DNA of 64,000 nt from Sialis fuliginosa (lineage: Eukaryota; Arthropoda; Insecta; Megaloptera; Sialidae), in assembly GCA_961205875.1 (NCBI GenBank), contig OY540822.1, positions 12,960,501-13,024,500 on the forward strand, written 5' to 3'. Below are positions 3,875 through 64,000 of this stretch, in pieces. A program made the translations under genes and the position numbers. Each line of letters starts with the position of its first letter. The first letter of the stretch is position 1. The notes below the pieces were generated by a model that saw only the letters and a list, made by a program, of their open reading frames with translations, was not told the DNA's origin and searched no databases.

Positions 3875-6800
3875 CATTTATCTAAAAAACAAATTTAACC
3901 CCAAAATTTGCCAAAAATATGCATTTTATATATCTATAACTCCATAAAAAAATAATTAAAACTTCAATCTATAAGAAGCATTGAAAATTAAAGACTTTTA
4001 ATTTATTTATGTACGTCAATTTTTACTATAAGAGCTTTGAATATGGGCCTATTAATAAATTTGAAGAGTGTAATACATGGTACAATTTACAAACCTTCTA
4101 AAAAATTAATGACATTTTACCACTCACCCTGGATTCAACACTGATTATGAAAATTTCATCTCAATGAGTAAAATGAAAAATCGACGCCTATACGCCACTC
4201 TTAAATGTCACAGCAGGATACAAAAAGCACAACTATTTTATCAAATCTAATTTCATACAAATGACTTATTAAATATCCGAATTTGACGTTGACATAATTA
4301 TAAATAAAAATAAATTTTGCGTTTGTACGCATACAATTTTACACATAAAATATAAATTCATTATTTTAAAAGTTATCACAATATTTACTTACTTGGTGAT
4401 TGTTGCTATACAAATGTTTATATGTCAACAATAAAAAATATACATGCACAATAAAATCAACATTATTTTGAGAATAATGCATTTAAAACACGAATAGACC
4501 GCACACGATTTTTTATAATAAATTGCCGGTGTTTTTTTTTGACACACGTGTTTCAACTAATCACGTAATAAACTCTTTTGTAAATTGTCTATGATTTTTT
4601 TTATTTTATCATAATATTGTAGATAAATCTATTAAAATGTATTACTCTGTGATTGCAGGATCCAAAAATATTAAAAATAAAGTCACTAAAACATTAACAT
4701 GCATTAATATTATTACAAATGACAAGAACGACAAGTCGCAATTATATTATGATAATCAGCGCCAATGTGAAAAAAGTATTTACTATTATTATTGTATTTT
4801 CATTTGTTATTTTCGACAACTGCGACAAAAGAAAAAATAGGACGGTGTAATTAAATTATGGAACGTTTTTTAAGGTATTTGACTGTTTTGTGGGTGCCAC
4901 TAACAGAAATATAAATATAGATTAAAAAAATGCAATTCTGATTTTAATTGTTGACATAAATATTATTTTACAATTTGGTTGGGTATTATTACAGACAGAC
5001 CAAAATTTATTTGCTGTGATTGATCTGCCCACAAAACAGTGAATTAATGAATTGATCATTTTGTTAAAAATATTTTTTATTTAATTTTTTTGTTAGCATA
5101 GCTCATAATTTTTTATTTACAATTATATGTTATATATTGCTAACTACATAAAAAATACCGACATATTGTACTAGTATATAAAGTTCTAGTTGGGGCATTA
5201 TGGTAGCTAAATACTGTTAAAAAAATTATACATAAAATTTTTTATACGAATTGTAATTTATCAAAACTTAAACTTAACTAATTGTTTCCAAATGTTTAAT
5301 ATATGATGCACCCCATTTTTGTTATAAGTCTCAAAATATTTTAAAAACACTTCTCTAAATACTGTAACGAACACAATAATATATATATATGTATGTATTA
5401 TGGTCAATGGCAGGCAATAACATTTTAATACTTATATAAAATTTGCAATTTGTATATTATTTATAACGTACATATATGTAATTTAAAAACAAGGAACTTT
5501 TCAATACTGCATGTAGGTACATATTAATTGTCAATAGTCAAAACATAATAACTCACATTCTGATAAACACTTAAGGTACTGGCACCAGTCTTGGATATGA
5601 CCCCAGTAATGGCTATTTTTTAATTAAATGTACTGAATTGTAAATATTTGTTGATATTTGATTACTACAATTTCTGAATATTAATCTATATACATTTAAC
5701 TGTCTTACAGCGTGATTTGATGACAATCGGCCAATAGGTGTTAAAATGGTGGACATTTAAACTAATTATTAGTATAATTTATTTATTAATTATTATATTA
5801 TCATAACAACCGCTTTACATTGTTTCAAATTTGACGATTCTTTCTTTTATATCTTTTGTGTCATAGTACTTATCATTTTGTAATCATTAGCTAGTGTCCA
5901 TCACTGCGTGCTCATTACTGGTTTTACTTTATCCATTACTAGAGAAAAAACAAACTATATTTGCAGACTTTGGTAATTAAATTGATTAAATAAAGAGTTA
6001 CTTGTTTTATTAATAACATGAGTTCATGAGAATTACAAAAAAGAAGCCACGTCAATCACAAAAACCTTGCTCTTATAGCGGCCATAACTGGTGCCAGTAT
6101 TCATTTGTGGGTACATTTATTTCAAAACGTATGTAATGTAATATATCATTATGTTATTAAACAATGTGACTGCGCAGTGAAGAAAATTAGAATATATCTA
6201 TCTTTAATAGATAACTCACTACAGTCGTTTTTATAATTTTAATATTGTTAATATTATTACAAAAACTTTAGGGCGAAAAAACTGGAATTCGCTACTAAAT
6301 TCCATTATATTAATGCGTCAAAAATGGAATATTTTTTGTATATACAAACAGTATTAAAAAGAGTTATTTTCTGTGTGCGTAACTTTTATACCCTTCTTTA
6401 TAAAACATGTTATATGTTTGTTTATATAGCAATTATAGAATAGAATAGAATAGAATATAATAATAATAATAATATAATGTTTAAAATGTTATAACGTTCA
6501 AACTTCTATAACTATATAATATGTATAATAACTATGTATATTCATTTAATTAAAACCAAAATAAATATTGCTTACAAAGACAATTAAAATAAAAAAACTA
6601 TTAGTATCTACATCGCACAACAATTAAATTATTCTGACAACGTGTATTTAATCCTTATAGCCCCAAATTTTAATTTGCTTGTAATATAAATAATGTAAAA
6701 TATTGCAGAAAAAATACTTTGTTCTATAATTTATAAAAGTCAGGGACTAAAATGGTTTAAATGCTTTTAAAATGCAAATATACAAAATAATGTTGTGTAA

Positions 6801-13130: not shown

Positions 13131-13170
13131 ATATCAGAAATGATAATAGATTTTAAATAAATTCACAATT

Positions 13171-13583
13171 CTATGGCACCAAGGTATTTTACGGCACCAA
13201 GATATTCTACGGCACCAAGGTATTCTACGGCACCAAGGTATTCTAGGGCACCAAGGTATTTTGCCTAGAATACCTTGGTGCCCTAGAATTCCTTGGTGCT
13301 CTAGAATACCTTGATGCCCTAGAATTCCTTGGTGCCCTAAAATACCTTGGTGCCCTAGAATACCTTGGTGCCCTAGAATTCCTTGGTGCCGTAGAATACC
13401 TTGGTGCCCTAGAATACCTTGGTGCCGTAGAATACCTTGGTGCCTTAAAATACCTTGGTGCCCTAGAATTCCTTGGTGCCGTAAAATACCTTGGTGCCCT
13501 AGAATACCTTGGTGCCGTAAAATACCTTGGTGCCGTAGAATACCTTGGTGCCGTAGAATACTTTGGTGCCATAGAATACCTAT
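13171..13583. repeat. Inverted 18-base minisatellite
   Basis: About five copies of an 18-base unit (GGCACCAAGGTATTCTAC) run in one direction from 13171 to about 13262, then about seventeen copies run in the opposite orientation (AATACCTTGGTGCCCTAG) to 13583. Units vary mainly at CCCTAG/CCGTAG/CCGTAA. The outermost units are also mirror images (CTATGGCACC at the left, GGTGCCATAG at the right). Since 18 is divisible by three, long open frames of six-residue repeats arise on the minus strand; these are not genes. Confidence 0.95.
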
Positions 13584-46435: not shown

Positions 46436-49240
46436 CGTGGTGATGTTTTTAGTTTCAATATATTTGTTTGCTCTTCTGCTCACAGTATTTGGGTTCGAAT
46501 TGAGAGTGTGTATATTAATAAGGTTGGTCAGTATTTTTTGTGTCCTGTCACAATCAACCCTTAGTTTTTCATAGTCGACATATTCTAAGTTTTATTTTAA
46601 ATAATGTATTTTTACTTTCATTTCCTCTGTCTTTTGAGATAATAGCATCTATATAGAATACACCAGTCGTCGTGTTGATTGTCACTCCAGGGTATTTGAT
46701 TCATTATCAAATAATGACTATAGAAATAAGGGTCTCTGTATAGTATGTGTAATATTTATTTATGATCGTTACTGCAGAAAATTACTTGAATCTTTACATA
46801 TCGTTTAAGTCTGATTTTTTAATCCTATCTGTGTATATTGCATTTAGTTAATATGGTAATGGGACACTACTGTACGGTACGAATATATTTATATCTCATT
46901 TTAAAAATCTCAATTTAATTTCATAATACTCGTTTATATTTTACATATTACATTTATTTATTTTAGTAGGTTTTCTCTGAATATTATTATTTAAATCTAC
47001 TCATTTTCTCAATAAGATTTATAATATTCAATATTTATTTATATTTTTGTGATTGAATAATGCTTCCATTTTCAAATCGATTTAAAATTTGCTTAAATAA
47101 ATCTTGAATATTAATTCAATATTACTATTACATCTGCATATGAATTTAAATAATAATAATCTGTATAAATAGCTAATATTAGATATTTATTATACATATT
47201 TGAATCCAAATACAGTGTACATATATACATATATAAATATATAATATGTAAAATATAGTGATTTTGGTAATGTGTATAATATTATAGTGATTTTTGTGTG
47301 TAATTTGTTTGAAAGTGCTGAATTCAGAACGTGATTATGCTTTGTCGAACCAAACTATTTTCACAAACTGTGTGAAGCTATTGATGATTTCTATAGGTAG
47401 TATTTGGTATATGGCAAAACGTCAGTACCCCATATTTAAATTATATTTACTGTTTTGAATCTCAGTGTTCTATTTTCTTCGAAGATTTGTTTTTTTTTTT
47501 CGTTTCTGATGATTTCTACTCGTCTAAAAATCAAAACATAAACATTTATTTTGTGCAATATAACTGCAATTTTTTCACTATTACAATACTAGTTACTAAA
47601 TAACTTGTACCTTATATTAATTTGCAACATTATTAGAATTAATATGACAAGAAATAAGTATACAGGTGTTCCAGTTTCAAACAACTGGCTTAACGTAGAA
47701 AACTGATGACAATTTTTTTTTTAATTGCACACATTGAAAAACTAGATACAATATCAAAATAATAATTGAAATAATACAATTTATCTTGCTACCACAAAAA
47801 AATATTCATATACGCCTTTGTTTTATCTTACGTTTAGAAAAACTGGCCCTCTGAAGTTGGAACATCCTATGTATTATTTTATTCTAGTCTTTTAATATGT
47901 AATTTTCCTTATATAGATAAAATAATATTGACTTCATATTTTATAATTACGAACTGATAACATTTTTTTAACGTTATTAATATCTGCACAAATGACAATT
48001 TTATTATTTATTGATTAAACAATAGTGCTTTTATAGTTGTAATAATTTATCTACAGGCTTATATTTATTTTTAAATTTGTTTTAGTAGACAGTATTATTT
48101 AAATTGATATTTATGAAGACGAGTAGATATTAACTTTTTATTAGTATTAAAATATAACCACTTGAATTTGTTATATTATATTGTTATATGGTAATTTCTC
48201 TTTTTAATACTAGTGTATCGTACATATAAGTTTGTTTGTGTGAGAATGAATTGATGCAATCAGATATGAGGTATTTTTTATTAGTAGTATGTTTAAATAA
48301 ATTATTCTTTGTGATAAATTAAATTATGTTATTGACTTTCATCTTGTTAAAACGTGCATACATTTATTTCTGATTGCGACTAACAATATCCAATTTGAGT
48401 TGAAGATATCGATCCATTGGAATTTTATAAACGGTTTTAAATATTCCTTTACCAAAGATACAAACTACTGTCCATCATAATCAAAATCAATAAAGAATTT
48501 ATATTTCTTTAACAGTTACTCATAACTCATTCAATTTTGTGATATTGCAATTAAACGAAGTAATTGAATGACGTTTAACATGTTAAATACAGACGAAGAT
48601 AGGAAGGTAAATAGATGTATTTATTGTTTGGTTACCTGCGTCCTTCATATTAACATCCGATTATGTAATGGTGTATACTTAATTAAATAATTATTTTCGA
48701 ATTGAAAATTATAAAGGAATAAAGGTTTTTGAAATTGTCATAATATTGCAATAAACATATTTTAAGTTTATTATTATTTTCTTTAGGATTAAGTAATAGT
48801 AGTAAACGGAAACAATTAAAAATTCTAACAATGAAAACAATAACTTATTCTAAAACAAATACAAACAATGCAATAGGTTGGTTGCAAATATAGTAATAAT
48901 ATCTTTATATATATTATTTTTTAAATGCGGTTGAGGTCTAATACATTTCTGACTGAAGTTGTTAGAATTTTGAACACAAAATCAAACATCTGTATACATA
49001 TTTATAGTAATAATATTAAATATTATAAAAAAGAAAACACCATTAAAAAACCTCATATAAAATTGAGTGTTATATTCAATGACAATTTTGTGATTATAAT
49101 TTTTATTGTTTAAAAAAGAAAAGTTTAATTTTTAATGATAATTTCTATAAGATATTTTAATGATTCTGTTTAAATATAATTGAGTATAGATTTAGTTAAA
49201 ATGATGGGGGAGCCTTAAAGACTAACATTCTAACTCAACA

Positions 49241-59800: not shown

Positions 59801-61751
59801 CTTATTAGACCGAATTCTTTCAAAAATTTTCCTAGAAGAATAAAAAAGTAAAGACAAAACTTCGATTTTTTTCACCCAAAATAAAACACCCTTAATAAAA
59901 ACTCATACGTTATATATACAGTATTTTTCATTTATATATGTAGGTAAAAACGCGTCTATTGTAATTAATTGGAAAAACTGTTTATTAAGTGATACATTAA
60001 CAATAGAACTTGATGACGAATTTTCGTTTCACGGTCATTTAATTGTTCTATGTAAACACTGAAATATAGGGTCTCCAAACTGAATGTCTATTTACATTTT
60101 CAGAGAACGTAGTCATATTATTTAATAATAATTATTATTATTTAATAGTAAAATGTATATAAACAGGTTGTCCACTTTCTGGAAAGTTAGGGAAAAGTCA
60201 GGGAAGCCTAAAGTGGTCAGGGAATTTATTATAAATTCTGGGAAGTCAGTGAAGAAGAAAAAAGTGTATAAATTTATGTTGACGAGCAAAAAAGTCTTCA
60301 AATTTGTTTGCACATTCTGGGGGCCCCTCAATCACTTCTTGCCCCCGAGCTTCTAGTGGTCTGGGAATTTTGAATCTGTGATCAGGGAAAAGTTAGGGAA
60401 TTTTATTTAAAAAAAACAGTGGACACCCTGATAAAATAAATTAAATGACATATAATTAAATAATATGGTCATTACAAAATATAATTACAATATCACGTAA
60501 AGTTTTGCGATCCCTGTTTTAATTGAGCCAGATTAAGTCATTATTTTTCCTAGATAGTATATTCGTCATTTCATCTAAAATTAAACAGTGTATTTAAAAC
60601 TTTTTACTAGTTTAAAGACGATTTCAATCCTTGTTGAGAACTGCTGGTATTCTTATGCAAATGTTAACGTTTCAGTTGTAGATTAATTTTAACAGTTTTA
60701 TTAATTTATGTGATATATTCAAATTAGTGCAATCAGTCATTTAGCATTGCAGACAGTTTTGTCAGAGTCATAATTAAAAGATTTTTTTTAATTCCTTGAA
60801 ATGAACATTTAGCAGAAGATTAATTTAACTTAATTTCTTGAAGAATTCAATTTGTAGTATATACAGTTTATTTTAATTGTATCATATTATTATTTATTTG
60901 ATTGTATGGCGTCATTGACAGTTTTTAATTTAGAAAAATCTGGTTAAAATATTATTGCAAAAAATACATATCTACAGTTATTATTTTTATAGCAAAGTAA
61001 ATTTTAGCCAGATGTAATCGCATGTTCCTAGTACAAAAATAAAGCTTGGGAAACTATTAAATGGTACTTAAACTTGTTTTTTGTTTTTTGTATTCTAGTA
61101 AAAGGTTTGAAATGTTATGTCTGCAGCCCAATTTACAGCCAATCTCAAGTAGCCAACAGTATTGCCAAAAATATTACAATCCTGACTTGCGATAACTTCA
61201 ATGAAAATGACAATAGATATGTAGCAGATTGCAAACACAGCCATCGCAGTACATGCCACACAGAAATAAACGGTATGTCAAATCCATTACTTACACATCT
61301 ACCCCCACCCCAATTTCAAACGTTTTTTTATAAACGAATACAATTAAATTTTTTAATTTCAGGCACACAAATTTTAAGATCATGCGATGGATTGAATGTA
61401 ACAAATTCATGTGTAGATGCAAATAATGTTAAATATTGCTATTGTTTTGGGAACCTCTGTAATAACAATATAGTAGACTCCAGTGCAAATATCCCTCTTT
61501 CCGATGATGAAGATGACAGCGATGATTCTAAAATAGACGGCAGCGGAGACTTCTTCGCATTGCCAGAATCTACAGAGAAATCAATGGAACTTCATGTGAC
61601 AACGGAACATATTCCTACATTTTTAACTACGGTTACTACTCCTGTATGGGCTGCTACCAACACATCAAATTCACACCATATTTCTTGTTGTTTATATTTT
61701 CTGTATGTGATATTCTTAACTGTGTATTTTCTATTTGTTTTTATTAATTAA
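56876..61751 (+). CDS. GPI-anchored Ly6/three-finger domain protein
   Basis: Small secreted-then-anchored cell-surface protein of the insect Ly6/quiver-type family; the individual member is not recognised. Exons 56876-56939, 61099-61272 and 61363-61751 join in phase 1 to give 208 residues. Residues 1-21 are a hydrophobic signal peptide (WIICLFIFFINSNF). The Cys-rich domain starts LKCYVCSP and ends with the family-typical Cys-Asn (GNLCNNN, residues 109-115). An acidic spacer (DDEDDSDDSKIDGSGDFF) and Thr/Ser-rich stalk follow, then a hydrophobic C-terminus (residues 188-207) that fits a GPI-attachment signal. N-glycosylation sequons occur (NIT, NVT). The 4.2 kb first intron carries several MITEs. 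A noncoding first exon upstream is possible. Confidence 0.8.
57934..58112. mobile_element. hAT-type MITE in Ly6 intron
   Basis: CAGGGCCGTAACTACC at the left is inverted relative to CTAGTTACGGCCCTG at the right. Flanking GCCTTACT and ACATTACT agree at six of eight positions, fitting a decayed hAT target duplication. 179 bases, non-coding. Confidence 0.65.
60164..60430. mobile_element. CAGGGTGTCC-type MITE in Ly6 intron
   Basis: The left end is CAGGTTGTCCACTTTCTGG and the right end, reverse-complemented, is CAGGGTGTCCACTGTTTTT. The interior is dominated by AGTTAGGGAAAAGTCAGGGA-like phrases repeated in both halves. It is the same terminal family as 30651-30903. Confidence 0.65.
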
Positions 61752-62263: not shown

Positions 62264-62655
62264 TTAGGGTTGCTAACTGTGCATCGATGCTGACCCAAAG
62301 AAAAATAATTTTGATGTGTATAAAAAAAATATGAATTCTTGAACAATAAACATAATAAATAAACCTTAAAAATTGTATATTATATATATATATATATGCT
62401 GGTGAAAAATTCCGGGTAGCTCCGCGTTCTGCGTTGTCTTCTTGATGACGTTTTGGTCGAATCCTATCGGCCATCTTCAAGTCTGGTCTGTACTTAGTTC
62501 TTCGAACCTCGTTTGACAGTAAATATATATATATATATATATATAAAATTGACAGTGCAGAAAGAAACAACTATAGGCAGCACAATCGCTTTGTCTCAGA
62601 ATTTTTCGCAAAACTCGAATTCTTCTGGTCAAAATAACAATGTTAGCAACCCTAA
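62264..62655. mobile_element. Small inverted-repeat element enclosing a retroelement fragment
   Basis: TTAGGGTTGCTAAC (62264-62277) and GTTAGCAACCCTAA (62642-62655) are perfect inverted repeats. Between them lie two AT dinucleotide runs (about 62378-62398 and 62523-62545) that bracket a GC-richer fragment with a hammerhead-like core. No transposase frame. Confidence 0.55.
62438..62481 (-). ncRNA. Degenerate hammerhead-ribozyme-like motif
   Basis: On the minus strand CTTGAAGATGGCCGATAGGA continues TTCGACCAAAACGTCATCAA. This resembles the core associated with Penelope-like elements (CTGAAGA, stem II, GAAAC, GTC): GAAGA is present, TGGCCGA pairs with TCGACCA apart from one C-A mismatch, and AAACGTC follows. 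The leading CTGA is CTTGA and the GAAA is shifted to AAAA, so activity is doubtful. Flanking AT repeats suit insertion of such an element into a microsatellite. Confidence 0.35.
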
Positions 62656-62714
62656 ATATTATATTACTTTGTCTACTTAGTTATCTGTAACTATATAATT
62701 ATATAAATAACTTC

Positions 62715-62949
62715 ATATTCATATGTAGATAAATAGATGTCTAATACATTAAACTAAAATAAAATTCTTGTTGACATCTATGTAGATAAATAGATGTTAC
62801 AAATTCATAATTTACTAGCATCCATGTTTTACCTGTGTAGATAAACAGGTAAGATAGAACTAGTTAAAAGAATCTATGTAGATAAATAGATTTTAATAAT
62901 TCAATTCACAAATGTAATTGTTATACTTGTGTAGATAAACAAATATAAC
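62715..62949 (+). repeat. Array of hairpins with invariant TGTAGATAAA loop
   Basis: TGTAGATAAA occurs at 62724, 62781, 62836, 62877 and 62930, spaced 41-57 bases. At the last four the flanks pair with each other: ACATCTA/TAGATGT, TTACCTG/CAGGTAA, AATCTA/TAGATT and GTTATACTTG/CAAATATAAC (one C-A mismatch). The stems differ in sequence but stay complementary, and the loop-closing pair switches between A-T and G-C. The first copy has a decayed stem. A sixth, inverted copy with a stem lies at 63760-63769. The function is unknown. Confidence 0.85.
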
Positions 62950-63123
62950 AAAAATTCAAGTGGCGCCATCACTTATCAAAAAGCAGCACTACTAATTACA
63001 GATTTCTGCATTAACGGCATGTTTCTAATGTTAAATAGAATTATTATGTACGCGCCTCCACCATATGGTTGAGGTGTATTCAAAATAATTTGATTATTGT
63101 GTGGTGTATTAGACGAGTCGAGT

Positions 63124-64000
63124 TAGACATGCTATCGTATCTCCATCGTAACTCCATCTAGCGGCAAAATGATGAACTTACAAAAATCGTGACGTCATTA
63201 GCCGAGATAAGCTCCGAAATCTGAAATTTTAAGTGTTATATAATGAAAACGGAGCTTGTCTTGGCTAAGTTTATTTGTCTTTGAAATAGTGGTGCCATCT
63301 AGCGGCAAAATGATGAACTTACAAAAATCGTGACGTCATTAGCCGAGATAAGCTCCGAAATCTGAAATTTTAAGTGTTATATAATGAAAACGGAGCTTGT
63401 CTTGGCTAAATTTATTTGTCTTTGAAATAGTGGTGCCATCTAGCGGCAAAATGATGAACTTACAAAAATCGTGACGTCATTAGCCGAGATAAGCTCCGAA
63501 ATCTGAAATTTTGAGTGTTATATAATGAAAACGGAGCTTGTCTTGGCTAAGTTTATTTGTCTTTGAAATAGTGGTGCCATCTAGCGGCAAAATGATGAAC
63601 TTACAAAAATCGTGACGTCATTAGCTGAGATAAGCTCCGAAATCTGAAATTTTAAGTGTTATATAATGAAAACGGAGCTTATCTCGGCTTAGTTTATTTG
63701 TCATAGCCGAGACATGCTTAGCCGATGGCGCTATTTTGTTTTAAAGTTTAAAATACCTGTTTATCTACACAGATATGTGGCGCCTCATATGTGATAGCTG
63801 GGCAGTAACTACCACCGGGTATGTAAAAGGATACGCTGATTCGACTTTTCGTATCAGTTTCGAAATTCATCAAAGGGTTCAAAAGTTACAGTCATTTTAC
63901 GATGAAAAATTGATAAAAAACTATGATAGCGTTCCGAGCGCAACATTTTATCAACATTTTTGGAATCACCACGCTGTTATACATACGATAGCATGTCTAA
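63124..64000. mobile_element. Probable element with terminal inverted repeats reaching the window edge
   Basis: TTAGACATGCTATCGTAT at 63124-63141 is the reverse complement of ATACGATAGCATGTCTAA ending at 64000. The enclosed 840 bases contain the 141-base tandem repeats and an inverted TGTAGATAAA hairpin. The right boundary may extend past the window. No coding region is visible. Confidence 0.55.
63189..63712. repeat. Four 141-base tandem repeats
   Basis: The phrase GTGACGTCATTAGC starts at 63189, 63330, 63471 and 63612, a constant 141-base period with only a few substitutions between units; part of a preceding unit (CCATCTAGCGGCAAAATGAT) begins near 63157. Each unit contains the palindrome TGACGTCA and an internal hairpin, TAGCCGAGATAAGCTCCG with CGGAGCTTGTCTTGGCTA about 35 bases later. 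In the last unit the right arm reads CGGAGCTTATCTCGGCTTAG, which pairs better. Confidence 0.95.

Follow-up and report, generated by a model that had tools for sequence, protein, structure and literature searches.

The hairpin array at the end of the window, the whole 64,000-nt stretch of Sialis fuliginosa DNA analysed here, was best explained as the inverted-arm part of a family of non-autonomous foldback-type DNA transposons whose arms carry hairpin recognition motifs, a reading to which we give a probability of about one half. The array very probably belongs to the arms of a non-autonomous foldback-type DNA transposon, and long inverted arms in dispersed copies, one membership feature of such transposons, were found in its family. 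There is an even chance that the element's predicted transposase uses the hairpins as its repeated recognition motif. The genome that was searched (392 Mb, 20 contigs) is eukaryotic, and the window holds eukaryotic genes. A Ly6-like frame at 61074-61751 was named by eye and gave nothing significant in Pfam, and 18-bp minisatellite arrays, open in several frames on both strands, were seen at 13168-13581.

Exact copies of the decamer TGTAGATAAA numbered eight in the window against 0.49 expected. Six of them lay near the window end, at 62724-63769, five forward (62724, 62781, 62836, 62877, and 62930) and one inverted (63760), just as the initial annotation had described. The flanks of copies 1 to 6 were paired contiguously, with G-T allowed, over 2, 9, 11, 8, 3, and 7 positions, respectively; in copy 5 a single C-A mismatch was found at position 4, and 11 of the 12 positions were paired. 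The claim of paired flanks in five of the six copies was borne out by pairing scores of 6.5 or more (range 6.5-10) in those five, compared with 0.28% of window positions. The two further copies, at 4618 (4619 in the initial annotation) and, inverted, at 48046, had also been said to lack paired flanks, and contiguous pairing was 0 at both. Among 1,674 decamers of the window, each occurring at least five times over the two strands, a score of at least 6 was reached by five of the eight copies of TGTAGATAAA, four of the eight copies of its complement, and at most two copies of every other decamer. The pairing was therefore no trivial product of the decamer, as had been argued from the beginning, and the window background, the control decamers, and the contig-1 sample described below agreed on this point. 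When the right arms of the six copies were exactly permuted, the observed pairing was reached in 36, 12, 5, and 2 of 720 arrangements over 4, 6, 8, and 10 positions, respectively. In the six-copy alignment A1, 88.3% of the 60 cells were paired, which none of 500 shuffles attained, and seven of the ten pairs had changed on both sides, which one of 500 shuffles attained.

Folding gave the loop GTAGATAA, closed by T-A, then by A-T or G-C, and then by T-A. Because the first T and the last A of the decamer form a pair in folding, the loop consists of 8 nt rather than the ten bases first proposed, while its invariance was upheld. The reported difference in the closing pair was also present (A-T in copies 2 and 4, G-C in copies 3 and 5). 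Copy 1 looks like a hairpin minus 2 bp of the left arm, judging from its CATA compared with CATCTA in copy 2. As single RNA folds, copies 2-5 were clearly better than shuffles (z -3.2 to -5.0), copy 6 was weak (z -1.3; equalled by 19 of 200 shuffles), and copy 1 was no better than shuffles; as single DNA folds, copies 4 and 6 were weak (z -1.3 and -0.2). Two other readings draw on these folds, and we consider both improbable. The folding of copies 2-5 as RNA is consistent with transcribed RNA hairpins, in which the arms would be transcribed and the fixed loop bound by a protein. The weakness of the short stems of copies 4 and 6 as single-stranded DNA is consistent with a site in double-stranded DNA that a dimeric protein of the host or the element binds, in which inverted half-sites would surround an asymmetric spacer and the paired look would arise only because both halves bind one protein. 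Inverted arms and a fixed asymmetric spacer, as this site would have, were present in every member looked at.

Table 1. Hairpin copies and parts of the inverted-repeat element, in window coordinates
Feature	Position	Strand	Remarks
Hairpin copy 1	62709..62748	+	Loop conserved, stem broken, apparent 2-bp left-arm loss
Hairpin copy 2	62766..62805	+	A-T closed; the element's left arm begins inside it, at 62771
Hairpin copy 3	62821..62860	+	G-C closed; the best fold; family-module position hpA
Hairpin copy 4	62862..62901	+	A-T closed; hpB position, 41 bp after hpA
Hairpin copy 5	62915..62954	+	G-C closed; hpC position
Hairpin copy 6	63745..63784	-	Inverted; right-arm side of the element; weak single fold
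Left arm of inverted-repeat element (aligned part)	62771..63140	+	98.1% identical inverted match, 375 columns, to L085:3983-4357
Tandem repeat between the arms, period 141	63154..63702	+	3.9 copies, 98% matches
Right arm, inner end	63983..64000	-	18-bp exact inverted repeat; arm extends beyond the window to window-equivalent 64357

The array was found to be one part of a larger inverted-repeat element (Table 1). The second-best genome match of the left arm was an inverted 98% copy that starts at window-equivalent 63983 and runs off the window end, and a self-comparison of the fetched locus L085 placed one inverted arm at window 62771-63140 and the other at window-equivalent 63983-64357. Inverted right-side hairpins were located in L085 at window-equivalent 63760, 64184, 64237, and 64278, of which the one at 64278 differs by a single loop base; the five forward copies therefore represent the left array, and the one inverted copy is the innermost hairpin that can be seen on the right. 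The period-141 repeat between the arms folds with an internal stem of about 19 bp that has G-T pairs on the + strand (z -8.3), and it contains CCATCTAGCGGC, which we take to resemble a CTCF site. Adjoining the array, the segment 62264-62655 is flanked by the 14-bp exact inverted repeat TTAGGGTTGCTAAC and resembles a small inverted-repeat element in its own right.

When window 62660-63160 was used as a DNA query, at least 46 genome matches were obtained on many contigs, its own included (40 of 407 candidates scored). The loci L055-L104 were taken by DNA similarity to the window's arm and are thus biased towards its relatives. The fetched loci shared a module in which hpA (ACCTG/CAGGT) is followed 41 bp on by hpB (CATCTA/TAGATG) and about 53-57 bp further by hpC (ATACCTG/CAGGTAT), with the loop GTAGATAA. 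Neighbouring array pairs within 20 kb were inward-facing in 27 of 27 cases, at distances of 0.4 to 15 kb, as counted on the first 100 of the 528 places of TGTGTAGATAAACA, grouped into 90 arrays. Same-direction modules about 430-440 bp apart occurred in L089 and L101, and in L088 and L090 all modules had a single orientation. A tRNA-like word, GTTCGAATCCC, was noticed by eye next to the outer flank of some arms (L088, L096, L099, and L101) and may belong to a SINE neighbour. Another palindromic repeat family at L047:1501-2071, with relatives in L119 and L121, has inverted decamers 561 bp apart and carries TGTAGATAAATAAAC without paired flanks.

Several loci of the family were long palindromes with very similar arms (98% over 2.5 kb in L097, 95% over 2.2 kb in L089, 93% over 5.2 kb in L099, and 93% over 4.1 kb in L100, which had a further inverted block outside), indicating that the arms of one element exchange or were copied. 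Identity between loci was mostly 70-90% among the matches listed, and the palindrome arms of L098 (83%) and L102 (87%) were no more alike than different loci. The palindromes of L099 and L100, which measure several kb, continue past the hairpin arms into other DNA, and flanking sequence may thus undergo inverted duplication at these loci. Long palindromes with similar arms are consistent with the hairpins being a by-product of palindromes, that is, folds without a function of their own whose stems would be kept matched by quasi-palindrome correction through replication slippage and by arm exchange, the loop being retained through shared ancestry or because it is an ordinary site for a protein. 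We regard this explanation as rather unlikely. The six window loops were identical whereas the stem arms were 20-80% identical, which argues against it, as does the loop of the wider hairpin set considered below.

In the genome, the decamer TGTAGATAAA occurred 5,941 times, compared with 3,235 for the reversed word. Counts were 685 for TATGTAGATAAATA (control 32), 528 for TGTGTAGATAAACA (control 8), and 94 for the mixed TATGTAGATAAACA (control 14), which cover three of the four combinations of the 2x2 covariation square whose fourth is TGTGTAGATAAATA. On contig 1, where about the first half of the first 100 decamer places listed was sampled and identical 40-base stretches were counted once, 6 of 48 distinct decamers scored at least 6, three at each of two places, compared with a background of 0.52% of 47,048 positions reaching score 6. 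The test first proposed, whether decamer flanks pair above background, separated these six from the other 42, which scored 3 or less. Given this split in scores, the decamers of the genome comprise both members of the family and copies that arose by chance.

A covariance model made from the six window copies identified 101 hairpins at 21 loci (E 0.001), 79 of them distinct, in a set that favours fits to this six-copy, loop-aware model and with pairing counted on the alignment fitted to it. In the 79 distinct hairpins, 85.8% of stem cells were paired compared with 76.0% in shuffles, and 106 cells had changed on both sides compared with 44.2; with the partners slid, 26-53% of cells were paired. 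Stem pairs showing at least one double change were no more numerous than in shuffles (332 of 500). Within the module positions, the observed pairing was matched by 5 (hpA), 45 (hpB), and 1 (hpC) of 5,000 permutations each, with the positions labelled by spacing and 78 of 189 members unclassed and left out. A tree of 30 arms (102 spacer columns) gave 8 pair-to-pair double changes, compared with 0-4 when the partners were slid by 1-3; these arms, like those of the module comparison (24, 30) and the flank comparison (24), were hand-picked among hpA sites. Together, the wider hairpin set and the tree showed that the fixed loop with compensating stems suggested for the window also exists beyond it. 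The loop columns of the 79 hairpins were nearly invariant save for one G/A position (70/9), and the outer stem pairs varied. Although the set comes from a loop-aware model, this near-invariance speaks against a mere by-product of palindromes. On the same tree, 40 changes break a pair, as a by-product would allow. Many stems are broken, which counts against the main reading, as do the shuffle-level tally of doubly changed pairs, the one-way modules of L088 and L090, and the palindrome arms of L098 and L102. The contrast first drawn with ordinary repeat decay was not sustained in view of these 40 changes, many copies being in the course of losing pairs, and because the hairpins recur as a motif within the arms of repeats that are dispersed through the genome. 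A folded site under selection, as first proposed, survives as one reading of the covariation, which template-directed correction of imperfect palindromes could also yield. The initial observation is sound, and its structural idea is half right.

The types of mismatch bear on all the alternatives. The seven innermost pairs of the 79-hairpin set contained 13 G-T and 10 A-C mismatches (p 0.68), and this balance between the strands fits both a palindrome by-product and a dimeric-protein site. Over all ten pairs the numbers were 37 and 18, and the eight positions counted in the window's own six copies gave 5 and 2, an excess of G-T that fits a transcribed RNA; most of the excess over the ten pairs came from one outer pair (16 to 2). 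The mismatches therefore favour neither RNA nor its absence, and the earlier suggestion of RNA or one-sided single-stranded DNA was not supported by the inner pairs. The transcribed hairpins would perhaps be intronic because the module sits between splice-like words: AAGGTAAGT precedes hpA in most arms of a set of 24, and TACTAATTACAG follows hpC in several arms. Against transcription, the module occurs in both arms in opposite directions and no Rfam family was recovered: a known RNA family was rejected as none of 4,227 families reached its gathering score in the window, and the 11 matches obtained for 62600-64000 under relaxed settings lay far short of their gathering scores, none of them to the hairpin array. 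A dimeric-protein site in turn predicts independent half-sites. Alignment columns 13/40 of the 79 hairpins contained C-G in 45, T-A in 25, and C-A or T-G in 7, whereas about 36 of the last kind would be expected from independence, with relatedness ignored.

Searches for related sequences outside the genome were made as well. A viral or prokaryote origin was rejected, as the viral and prokaryote contigs searched gave 0 hits for paired decamer sites at a spacing of 20-50 bases. Single decamer sites there numbered 7 and 39, close to rough expectation, and 4 of the 46 paired with a score of at least 6; two other words of the element had no match in viral or prokaryote sequence. The decamer or its complement is printed in 132 papers, and among the titles listed none was on hairpin or transposon repeats; the literature searches made on fixed-loop hairpin arrays yielded analogues, none of this kind.

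Among known systems, the origins of small single-stranded DNA viruses carry one constant loop word while their stems vary from member to member, and a nickase reads them. They resemble the window family in the fixed loop word on variable stems; they differ in having another loop word, and the window family has several hairpins per arm and showed no Rep gene. We know of no REP palindromes inside inverted arms. These palindromes, with their GTAG tag, are likewise small, conserved, and present in many copies, but the available text on them describes a prokaryotic family with the tag at one end, whereas the fixed word of the window family is the loop (PMC3733652). The available descriptions of Helentron, HINE, and DINE-1 share inverted palindromic subterminal repeats and central tandem repeats with the window family and differ in asymmetric ends with one short 3' palindrome (PMC4067079, PMC3630058). 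The hairpin modules of the window family were found in both arms, and several loci were near mirror images, which speaks against such asymmetric ends. Galileo is a foldback-type element whose transposase assigns it to the P superfamily and whose target duplications measure 7-8 bp; like the window family, it has long inverted arms that are extended by tandem repeats, and copies that are almost solely two kilobase-long arms, many without transposase, according to the available text (PMC4168063). The P-type placement and the target duplications belong to Galileo and neither was found in the window's element family, and a fixed-loop hairpin array is unmentioned for Galileo in that part of the source (PMC4168063). 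The array is most likely a mobile-element arm.

In the foldback-type transposon reading, the element's predicted transposase would read the fixed loop together with a stem that is palindromic or extruded, and binding would be raised by the presence of several motifs in each arm. Repeated subterminal motifs occur in other transposons, and hairpin motifs are comparable to these. The loop and the pairing would have been preserved during the activity of the element, with the present copies decaying. No transposase was found in four reading frames from element interiors, which gave no Pfam match, or in one sampled 2.8-kb interior, and the interior of one 6.6-kb candidate resembled other repeats, with a longest frame of 81 aa. 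Flank comparisons, the 24 hand-picked arms among them, gave no common end point from which element ends or target duplications could be read.

The ends of inverted-repeat transposons are usually regarded as double-stranded binding sites. A fixed loop with a stem that mainly must pair would instead point to recognition of folded DNA. It is unlikely that the element's enzyme reads folded DNA, recognising an 8-base loop of constant sequence whatever the complementary stem beneath it, with such sites arrayed at each end of an inverted-repeat transposon of an animal. If the folded-site reading were true, recognition could be based on structure as in single-strand nickases, or the hairpin could be a lox-like recombinase site, with inverted arms around an asymmetric 8-bp spacer, and recombination between inward-facing sites might also generate giant palindromes. 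The approximately 1,200 exact A-T or G-C closed cores in one genome would allow the recognition rule to be tested. More generally, conserved-loop hairpins noticed by eye can be the arms of dispersed repeats instead of host RNA.
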